Shown: one piece after another, positions 3,753-6,434 of the stretch
How positions within the stretch are numbered: position 1 is the stretch's first letter
Layout: each line of letters begins with the position of its first letter
Origin: Candidatus Poribacteria bacterium
Lineage (GTDB): Bacteria; Poribacteria; DTPJ01; WJIO01
DNA: 8,522 bases
Direction of reading: 5' to 3'
Assembly (NCBI GenBank): GCA_014730235.1
Contig: WJIO01000390.1
Coordinates: 1-8,522, forward strand
Made by a program: the position numbers and the translations under genes
Notes under the pieces: model-generated
Seen by the model: only the letters and a program-made list of their open reading frames with translations
Told to the model about the DNA's origin: nothing
Databases searched by the model: none

Positions 3753-6158
3753 ATGAAAAATCGTCCTGCCTTAAAGTTAATTCTAACTTATTTGATCGGG
3801 ATAATTCTGGCCGACAGATTTAACCTGAATCTAATTATATTATGGGGATTGGCAATATTCTTTATTGCCATTTCCTTTGTTTTATATAAAAGAAGATTTC
3901 TATCCCTTAGCAGTGTTATAATCCTCCTGTCTTTTATGCTTATAGGATTTCTTCGTTACGAAGTCTCTGTAATCCCACCAAAAGATACAATTAAAATTTT
4001 AAACCAAAAAGTAAATATCCAGGCTAGGGTTCTAAGAATCCATAAAACAAAGAGTGGTGGTTCTTATGCGATTCTTAAAGGGAATGCTAAAATCCTTTCT
4101 AAACCATCAACAACAGTAAATTGCCGTATGCTTATTAGTTTCTGGGAACATGTTTTGCCATATAATTATGGTGATGTTCTGGAATTCAACGGACAGGTAA
4201 AGACCATTCAGCCTCCAAGAAACTTCGGTGCTTTTGATTTCCGCAAATATATGATGAGTCAAAGAACGTTTGTGGAAATTGACATTAACAAAAAGGAAGA
4301 GATAAGAAAAATAGGGGTAAGTGGGATTCCCTTTATCCGATGGATTAACAAATTACAAAAAAAGATAGAACTGGGGATTAACCAGTCATTGCCATTAAGG
4401 ACTTCAGCCGTTTTAAAGGGCTTTGTCCTGGGAAATAAAGACAATTTATCCGAAAGCCTGAAAGAGAAATTTCGCAGGACGGGAACAAGTCATGTTCTGA
4501 CAATCTCAGGATTACATATGGGCATTATTGCCACATGGAGTTTTTTTGTCTTTGATTTTATCAGGAAAATTTTAAGCATAGAGAAAAAGATTTATGCCAG
4601 AATACCTGTAATACTGATTATGGCAGTCTATGCCTGTATGGTGGGATTCCGATTCCCAGCTTTAAGGACTTTATTTTTTGCTGTGCTGATATTAACAGCC
4701 GGATTGCTGGATCGAGACGTGGATATGCTTAATTTAATATCAGTTGCTGCATTATCTGTTCTTATCATACGTCCCGGAGCTTTTTTTGATGCATCATTTC
4801 GGTTGTCTTTTGGGATAGTGGCTTCAATTACAATTATGATGCCCTATTGGGATATTTTTACAGAAAATATTCTGAATCAATATACGACAAATCGCTTATT
4901 AAATAGAATTCGTCAATTCGTTGGAGTTTCTTTATCTGCTTCCCTGGCTTCAGTTTTTCTCACTGCTTACATATTTCGCGGATTTTCAACGGTAAGCTTA
5001 CCAGCAAATATTTTAGTTGTTTTTCTTGCAATGTTGATTGTACCTTTAGGATTTATACTATCAGGTCTAAGCCTAATCTGGATTTCCTTTTCCCGATTGC
5101 TTGGGTATATTTTGCATATGCTTATATCCCTTATATTAATCATAATAGGATGGTTGTCATCAATCAGGTGTTCATATGTTGAAAATGTAGGTTTATCTCT
5201 TTTAGTTGGATTAGCACTTTTGTATATTATATTGGCCTTTTTAATTATACTACCAAAGCTGTTGAAAAGACCAAATAAACTCATTCTCTCTGGATTTGGC
5301 ATCTTAGTCATTATCTTATGGGGTCTGGCCCTGACACATAAGGGAAATATAGTTGAGGTAACATTTCTGGATGTAGGTCATGGCGATTCAATTTTTATTG
5401 ATTTACCCGGAAATCGCAATATATTAATAGACGGTGGTTTATATAACACATGGATAGAGGATGGAAAGCTTCTGACTGTGGATAAGGGTAAAAGTGTTGT
5501 GATTCCATTTCTGAGATATAAGGGTGTAAATAATCTGGATATGGTAGTATCAACCCATCCCCATTCGGATCATGTAGGTGGTCTTATATCTCTGATTGAT
5601 GAAATAGAAGTAAAGGAAGTATTGACTGGTAGTTATGGACTTAAGACTTCAACTTACAGAAAGTTTCTGGAAAAATTAAATGATGAGGCAATTCCACATA
5701 GAGAAGCACGCAAAGGCAATATATTCAGCGATGGTAAAATAAGCCTTAATGTAGTCAGTCCTGAAAATCCTGACCTGTCGGGAACTGAAAGCTCCCGAAT
5801 GAATAACAACTCAGTTGTTATTCGCTTTACCTATAACGAAATATCATTCCTATTTACCGGAGACATTCAGGAAGAATATGAAAATATACTTGTGAATTCG
5901 GGTCAAAATATCAAAGCTAATGTTTTAAAAATTCCTCATCAGGGAAGTTTAACATCCAGCAGTTGGGAGTTTTTAAAGACTGTTCAGCCGGATATTGGTT
6001 TATTGTCAATAAGTGAAAATAACGCATTTGGCCATCCGGCAAAAGAAATTATGAACAGATATGAAAAACTCGGCGTCAATGTATATCGCACAGATAAGCA
6101 CGGCGCGGTAAAATTTATTACTGATGGCAAAAAAATATGGATAAAAACAATGCTGTGA
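3753..6158 (+). CDS. comEC: DNA internalization competence protein ComEC/Rec2
   Basis: The inner-membrane channel that carries single-stranded DNA into the cytoplasm during natural transformation; its 801 residues are typical of full-length ComEC. The order is standard. There is an N-terminal membrane and OB-like DUF4131 region (about 1-190), then the multi-helix Competence domain (about 210-510) with HVLTISGLHMG at 247-257. A C-terminal metallo-beta-lactamase-like domain starts at FLDVGHGDS (538-546), with HPHSDH at 602-607, FTGD at 701-704, PHQGS at 728-732 and GHP at 760-762. All metal-site motifs are present, so the nuclease-like domain looks intact. The first motif has His where FLDVGQGD is usual. 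The gene begins 14 nt after the membrane-protein stop and lacks a clear Shine-Dalgarno sequence (only AAAAGAA), suggesting translational coupling and low expression. No comEA, comF or pilus gene is nearby, so it may be a lone housekeeping copy. Confidence 0.95.
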   Translation: MKNRPALKLILTYLIGIILADRFNLNLIILWGLAIFFIAISFVLYKRRFLSLSSVIILLSFMLIGFLRYEVSVIPPKDTIKILNQKVNIQARVLRIHKTKSGGSYAILKGNAKILSKPSTTVNCRMLISFWEHVLPYNYGDVLEFNGQVKTIQPPRNFGAFDFRKYMMSQRTFVEIDINKKEEIRKIGVSGIPFIRWINKLQKKIELGINQSLPLRTSAVLKGFVLGNKDNLSESLKEKFRRTGTSHVLTISGLHMGIIATWSFFVFDFIRKILSIEKKIYARIPVILIMAVYACMVGFRFPALRTLFFAVLILTAGLLDRDVDMLNLISVAALSVLIIRPGAFFDASFRLSFGIVASITIMMPYWDIFTENILNQYTTNRLLNRIRQFVGVSLSASLASVFLTAYIFRGFSTVSLPANILVVFLAMLIVPLGFILSGLSLIWISFSRLLGYILHMLISLILIIIGWLSSIRCSYVENVGLSLLVGLALLYIILAFLIILPKLLKRPNKLILSGFGILVIILWGLALTHKGNIVEVTFLDVGHGDSIFIDLPGNRNILIDGGLYNTWIEDGKLLTVDKGKSVVIPFLRYKGVNNLDMVVSTHPHSDHVGGLISLIDEIEVKEVLTGSYGLKTSTYRKFLEKLNDEAIPHREARKGNIFSDGKISLNVVSPENPDLSGTESSRMNNNSVVIRFTYNEISFLFTGDIQEEYENILVNSGQNIKANVLKIPHQGSLTSSSWEFLKTVQPDIGLLSISENNAFGHPAKEIMNRYEKLGVNVYRTDKHGAVKFITDGKKIWIKTML

Positions 6159-6205
6159 AAATCCAATTTTATACAGATGCCTTGATCTGAAGAGTCAAGT
6201 CTGCT

Positions 6206-6214
6206 ATTCTTGTT
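6206..6214. repeat. Left copy of a 9-bp target-site duplication
   Basis: ATTCTTGTT directly abuts the left inverted repeat of the element at 6215-6425 and is repeated exactly, in the same orientation, at 6426-6434. The identity stops sharply on both sides: T versus G before it, C versus T after it. That is what a staggered transposase cut leaves behind. Confidence 0.75.
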
Positions 6215-6425
6215 CCAAGCATAAAATTTATTTCCGTGAAAACTTTGGCTCATCCGGTTTGAGTATGGTTATAATTGAAAATTCCCTCAGCTTGTCATTC
6301 CTGCGAAAGCAGGAATGACAGCGTGAAGAAGTTTCTTATCTTTACCACACTGAACCCGGAAAAGCCAAACTTTATTTGTTACTCCGACCTTCGCAATAAC
6401 GCAGAGATGTAAAATTTATGCTTGG
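6215..6425. mobile_element. MITE-like 211-bp palindromic element
   Basis: The element begins CCAAGCATAAAATTTA (6215-6230) and ends TAAAATTTATGCTTGG (6410-6425). These terminal inverted repeats match at 15 of 16 positions. The palindrome continues inward: 6242-6271 is the inverted match of 6342-6371 at 23 of 30 positions, and the exact centre is a perfect 12-bp hairpin at 6293-6320. The arms are unequal only in one block, 11 nt on the left (6231-6241) against 38 nt on the right (6372-6409). Flanking ATTCTTGTT direct repeats show that it inserted by transposition. I find no coding region of its own, so it must be moved by a transposase elsewhere in the genome. A 9-bp duplication is known from several DDE families (IS1, IS4/Tn10, IS256), so the parent family is not settled. 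It sits between comEC and the second oxidoreductase and probably separates two transcripts. Confidence 0.8.
6293..6320. repeat. Perfect GAAA-capped hairpin at the centre of the MITE
   Basis: The arm TGTCATTCCTGC (6293-6304) pairs perfectly over 12 bp with its complement at 6309-6320, and the loop is GAAA (6305-6308), a stable GNRA tetraloop in RNA. Similar TCATTCC(C/T)GCGAAAGC repeats are, from memory, dispersed in many unrelated bacterial genomes. No T-run follows on either strand, so it is not a classical intrinsic terminator, though it may slow polymerase or protect the 3' end of the upstream mRNA. Confidence 0.75.
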
Positions 6426-6434
6426 ATTCTTGTT
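6426..6434. repeat. Right copy of a 9-bp target-site duplication
   Basis: An exact direct repeat of ATTCTTGTT at 6206-6214, directly after the last base of the right inverted repeat of the MITE. The two copies together define the element ends to the base. Confidence 0.75.

Follow-up and report, generated by a model that had tools for sequence, protein, structure and literature searches.

The window analyzed here is a stretch of 8,522 nucleotides from a Candidatus Poribacteria bacterium (contig WJIO01000390.1), in which a short, non-coding element of 211 bp sits between comEC and an oxidoreductase gene (Table 1). The gene directly upstream of the element (3753-6158) is a complete comEC-like competence gene with Competence, DUF4131 and metallo-beta-lactamase domains. 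The initial annotation had described the element as a complete MITE with terminal inverted repeats (TIRs) and a perfect 9-bp target-site duplication, and we found this description to be correct: the flanking duplication is exact, the 16-bp TIRs match at 15 of their 16 positions (when one flanking base is added on each side, the ends form 17 nt with 94% complementarity), and duplicated targets recur around copies at independent loci. The interior is, as had also been claimed, a long imperfect palindrome without coding capacity, its arms (6240-6304 and 6309-6373) being 72% complementary. There is no ORF of at least 60 aa inside the element, and a single mechanical ORF of 89 aa on the minus strand overlaps its left end. 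The element folds strongly (z = -8.0 both as DNA and as RNA), none of 200 shuffled sequences being equally stable.

Table 1. Features of the element and its left flank; positions refer to the window.
Feature	Position	Strand	Evidence
Target-site duplication, left copy, ATTCTTGTT	6206..6214		9/9 identical to 6426-6434
Target-site duplication, right copy, ATTCTTGTT	6426..6434		9/9 identical to 6206-6214
Left terminal inverted repeat, CCAAGCATAAAATTTA	6215..6230	+	Complementarity; near-exact copies genome-wide
Right terminal inverted repeat, TAAAATTTATGCTTGG (+ strand letters)	6410..6425	-	Complementarity to left repeat
Non-autonomous element (MITE), 211 bp	6215..6425	+	blastn hits across the genome; separate 9-bp duplications at sister copies
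Palindromic core module, also occurring alone elsewhere in the genome	6244..6369		Matches confined to element positions ~30-155
Central perfect hairpin, GTCATTCCTGCGAAAGCAGGAATGAC	6294..6319		Folding; copy counts
-35-like TTGACT, 16 nt outside left terminal repeat	6193..6198	-	Among the TTTATGCTTGG-N16-TTGA matches (C335:6195-6225)
Weak -10-like TATAAA, 19-nt spacing from -35-like box	6168..6173	-	Sequence; not called at 16-18 nt, nor by stricter tests

The genome to which the window belongs is a 5.53-Mb draft, 92% complete, whose loci we studied from sampled stretches. A search for further copies with different 9-bp flanks had been recommended, and many such copies are present: blastn with the 211-bp element gave 87 matches, the best full-length copies being 85-93% identical, and the 16-mer of the terminal repeat occurs 237 times with no more than one mismatch (the reversed control, 0 times). 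The genome holds more than a hundred copies of the MITE, from ~194 to 297 bp in size with clusters near 195 and 212. Duplications matching at 7/9 or better flank 38 of 65 TIR-paired candidates (25 exact, 9 at 8/9 and 4 at 7/9), while among the rest, whose flanks match poorly, are mispaired ends and, probably, old or recombined copies. These observations support the window element as one copy of a MITE family. The suggestion that its insertion was fairly recent fared less well: a match of nine bases can persist through much drift, the most similar copy is 93% identical and no intact transposase with the exact MITE ends was found, so that the event cannot be dated from the duplication. An empty site in relatives had been proposed as a further check, and what we found is a diverged, intragenomic one for a single sister copy (L111), which lies inside a repeat whose relative at L113 is uninserted and has a single copy of the target, matching at 8/9. 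For the window copy itself no such site was found in the genomes searched, all of which come from outside its genus and family.

The initial annotation also held that a lack of other copies, in the genome or in its relatives, would speak against a mobile element. Copies abound in the genome itself, but neither paired MITE ends nor the transposase described below is present in 83 other genomes of the phylum, the nearest of which belongs to the same order and another family. Two hits to the paired-TIR pattern in GTDB r220, on contigs of Saprospiraceae and Bacteroidales, were judged to be chance matches with little in common beyond the 11-bp pattern ends. No relatives of the transposase were detected among the GTDB r220 contigs, and blastn of the element against phage and plasmid records gave no match. 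No family name was found, and within the reach of these analyses the guess that the MITE is undescribed holds.

The interior of the element has a distribution of its own. Palindromic cores of ~125 bp that lack terminal repeats and have constant edges (TTTGGTTCTTCC...GGAAGAACCAAA) occur solo, and the central hairpin GTCATTCCTGCGAAAGCAGGAAT has 534 copies with no more than one mismatch in the own genome (G000), versus the 237 terminal repeats. Elsewhere in the phylum there are 38 hairpins in the one further genome searched from the same order, two in G003 and none in 81 genomes; G001 and G003 contain the core hairpin but not paired terminal repeats. The occurrence of the core alone and the 534 copies of the hairpin suggest that the MITE shares, or has captured, an independent palindromic repeat. 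We did not find the sequence of the central hairpin in the literature, where CCAAGCATAAA, with which the ends of the insertion sequence discussed next begin, appeared only in papers unrelated by title. Several sites (L174:1501-1523, L059:1501-1523 and L176:1501-1523) hold palindromes of 23 bp that consist of two fused terminal repeats. Such palindromes are flanked by exact 9-bp duplications at C93 and C106 (at C106 with 7 extra bases) and by one at 8/9 at C337, and they adjoin TTGACA/TATAAT-like pairs. Because transposition of so short a piece as 23 bp seems unlikely, we take them to be probable scars of MITE deletions between the self-complementary CATAAAWTTTATG of both ends.

What enzyme could have moved an element that has no gene? 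Next to an unpaired terminal repeat (C45) we came upon the C-terminal part of an ISKra4/ISLre2-like transposase, among whose relatives in the genome is a complete insertion sequence (IS) on C354 (L128:1464-2972), which we term type A. It is 1,509 bp long, contains an ORF of 447 aa, has perfect 25-bp inverted repeats (CCAAGCATAAAAATAATGTTCCCTT, starting CCAAGCATAAA, with a terminal C) and is flanked on both sides by the exact 9-bp duplication CCGATTTGT. The ORF passes the cut-off of Pfam UPF0236 (PF06782; 90.9 bits against 24.3), whereas its best NCBIfam match, NF033572 (ISKra4), at 152.8 bits is under the cut-off of 205, and NF033529 (ISLre2), at 144.5 bits, is under that of 200. Because both NCBIfam scores fall below their cut-offs, the partner transposase is filed at superfamily level only. 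Judged by its sequence, the partner IS belongs to the prokaryotic Mutator-like (UPF0236) superfamily, in whose transposons duplications of 8-9 bp and a terminal C have been described (Guerillot et al., 2014; PMC3942029); alongside the 9 bp and the C, its 25-bp inverted repeats lie within the 18-39 bp of UPF0236 elements. An IS with the same ends and a transposase gene had been listed among the things to look for. The type A IS has the gene, the 9-bp duplication and the same outer ends, but it shares only the first 11 terminal bp with the MITE and diverges beyond them.

A second IS subtype, known from fragments only (3' ends at C45 and C60, 5' ends at C162 and C41), has 20-22 terminal bases in common with the MITE, at either end. 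Its C-terminal end reads CCAAGCATAAAATTTACATCC, followed by the C-terminus of the transposase, and its N-terminal ends read CCAAGCATAAATTTCTTGTCCGGA. One sister copy of the MITE (L002) starts CCAAGCATAAATTTCTTGTCCG, exactly as the left end of this subtype does, and in two elements (L010 and L096), both with 9/9 duplications, the outermost 25 bp are that left end. Most simply read, the ends of the MITE derive from this second, fragmentary subtype, and insertion sequences of the ISKra4/ISLre2 (UPF0236) group are the probable mobilizers. Judging by the translations, an IS3-like element seems to have broken up the copies at C45, C162 and C41 (L091, L136, L139), and no intact transposase with the exact ends of the MITE was found in the 92%-complete draft. 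Other transposases were considered as mobilizers and rejected: none of the eight DDE_Tnp_1 (PF01609) matches is flanked by MITE ends, the DDE_Tnp_1 gene on C440 has stops and simply has a MITE in its neighborhood, and the one Y1_Tnp (PF01797) gene of the genome is not linked to the MITE.

The sites at which the MITE is found have a striking regularity. Among 147 non-redundant element-genome junctions, from loci picked without regard to promoters, TTGAC begins at a distance of precisely 16 nt from the terminal repeat in 29, compared with 5 at offset 15, 0-3 at other offsets and a background of ~1 per 1000 per offset in random stretches; the TTGAC at offset 16 is often followed by TATAAT at ~17 bases. 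When a promoter-like pair was defined as at least 4/6 matches in each hexamer at a distance of 16-18 nt, such pairs began at offsets 15-17 at 54 of the 147 junctions versus 2-10 for other offset triples, and in 24 of the 38 elements with good duplications versus 0-8 elsewhere. Both proportions lie above the 20% of sites with a sigmaA promoter 13-17 bp from the inverted-repeat junction that marks promoter-targeting p-MULT elements. In the column composition, from a run of 152 junctions that includes a few loci chosen by their TTGA pattern, TTGA stands out at positions 16-19 and a block resembling TATAAT at 39-44. Apart from this the flanks are not related to one another (among the 147, 6 pairs are similar), promoters were found adjoining both MITE ends, and exact matches to TTTATGCTTGG-N16-TTGA number 52 in the whole genome, the window copy included. 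Both N-terminal ends of the second IS subtype likewise have TTGACT at offset 16 or 15. The complete type A IS is at no recognizable promoter, and neither type A copy (C354, C117) has one at offset 16. Type A (L128:1464-2972, L130:1464) was instead observed to abut coding sequence, and the two IS subtypes may therefore differ in their choice of target. In the window, the TTGACT at offset 16 has a poor -10 and would read antisense into comEC, for which reasons the target of this copy is to be regarded as a -35-like sequence, not a proven promoter. Starts of ORFs were not significantly commoner beyond the promoter-bearing junctions (p = 0.47).

We consider it highly probable that these observations describe a MITE family moved in trans by a transposase of the UPF0236 group and mostly inserted 16 bp upstream of -35 boxes. 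In the mechanism that we propose, a Mutator-like DDE transposase of the ISKra4/ISLre2 (UPF0236) group would recognize ends of 16-25 bp of the form CCAAGCATAAAWTTTA(Y)RTCC, mobilize the MITE in trans and insert it via a 9-bp staggered cut. In most of the copies analyzed, a constant 16 bp would separate the insertion from the -35 box of a downstream sigma70-type promoter, and either end of the near-symmetric element could face that promoter. As landing just upstream would leave the core promoter intact, it is plausible that the family could reach more than a hundred copies for this reason. Whether the insertions might also affect transcription is another matter, and it seems doubtful to us that the MITE palindromes, by replacing upstream elements at many promoters, constitute a genome-wide, promoter-proximal regulatory or insulating module.

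Could the element instead be an ordinary conserved intergenic palindrome, that is, a terminator or a structured RNA, beside a 9-bp repeat that arose by chance? Its location between two genes, its strong fold and the abundance of its central hairpin as a repeat in its own right would all suit such an origin. However, we saw no terminator-like T-run in the window region, an Rfam search with the element matched no family, and dozens of unrelated loci have the same ends between exact 9-bp flanks that differ from locus to locus; because of these multiple independent target-site duplications the idea is already refuted, and we give it virtually no credence. A different objection is that the transposase does not choose its targets and that the spacing to promoters stems from selection among random insertions, of which those within genes would have been purged, leaving intergenic survivors. 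Selection of this kind predicts a broad range of distances, but the signal is concentrated at offset 16 and drops steeply to both sides, and the 16-bp figure had already been published for related transposases (PMC3942029). We think this explanation very improbable.

Two further alternatives concern the parts of the system. The MITE might currently be mobilized by the intact type A IS and not by the now-broken subtype, and this IS does have the only intact related transposase found, agrees with the MITE in its first 11 terminal bases and has a duplication of 9 bp; yet its divergence from the MITE after those bases and the lack of a promoter at offset 16 at its sites make it an unlikely mobilizer. 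It is also quite conceivable, even if we do not favor it, that the core is a REP-like repeat spread by other machinery, that the MITE is a composite and that proximity to promoters belongs to the outer TIR element. The surplus of core hairpins over terminal repeats, the constant edges of the solo cores and the hairpins that occur without paired terminal repeats in G001 and G003 argue for a composite, whereas the solo cores could be decayed MITEs, no duplication was recognized around them and the genome has just one Y1-type transposase gene. A composite origin is, in any case, compatible with a promoter-targeted family mobilized in trans and does not exclude it.

We found no report in the literature of a promoter-targeting MITE, nor of a MITE of the ISKra4/ISLre2 type, and we regard the probable mobilizer and the promoter-targeted insertion of a MITE as what is new here. 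Targeting 16 bp upstream of promoters was known before for a few gene-bearing elements, and here it is seen in one that is gene-less and high in copy number. A MITE that spares promoters illustrates a route by which an element may multiply in a compact genome without damage. As each copy marks a likely promoter, the family doubles as a promoter map of an uncultured lineage, and its many natural insertions provide material on the question “Does the transposase read promoter DNA or bound RNA polymerase?”

Among the systems closest to the family are QMITE2 of Coxiella burnetii and Chunjie of Geobacter uraniireducens, which, according to the portions of PMC10969869 drawn on here, are MITEs of ~190-235 bp with TIRs, direct repeats (7-9 bp in QMITE2) and size variants, and have copies without TIRs or repeats that resemble REPs. 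Their ends differ from those of the window MITE, and the same portions mention no promoter-distance specificity. The ISKra4 group (p-MULT 4; PMC3942029) resembles the partner IS in its UPF0236-type DDE transposase, its 8-9-bp duplications and its inverted repeats of at least 18 bp with a terminal C, and for some of its members sigmaA promoters lie 13-17 bp from the insertion, on both sides if their inverted repeats are near-identical. Unlike members of this group, the MITE has no gene and its terminal sequence matches no named IS, and the partner transposase, close to ISLre2 as well, scores below the NCBIfam ISKra4 cut-off. The ISLre2 family and the TnGBS ICEs (p-MULT 3; PMC3942029), which have a related transposase, favor sites upstream of sigmaA promoters, the distance between inverted repeat and promoter peaking at exactly 16 bp, but their orientation is constant, the right end facing the promoter, whereas the MITE described here presents both of its ends.
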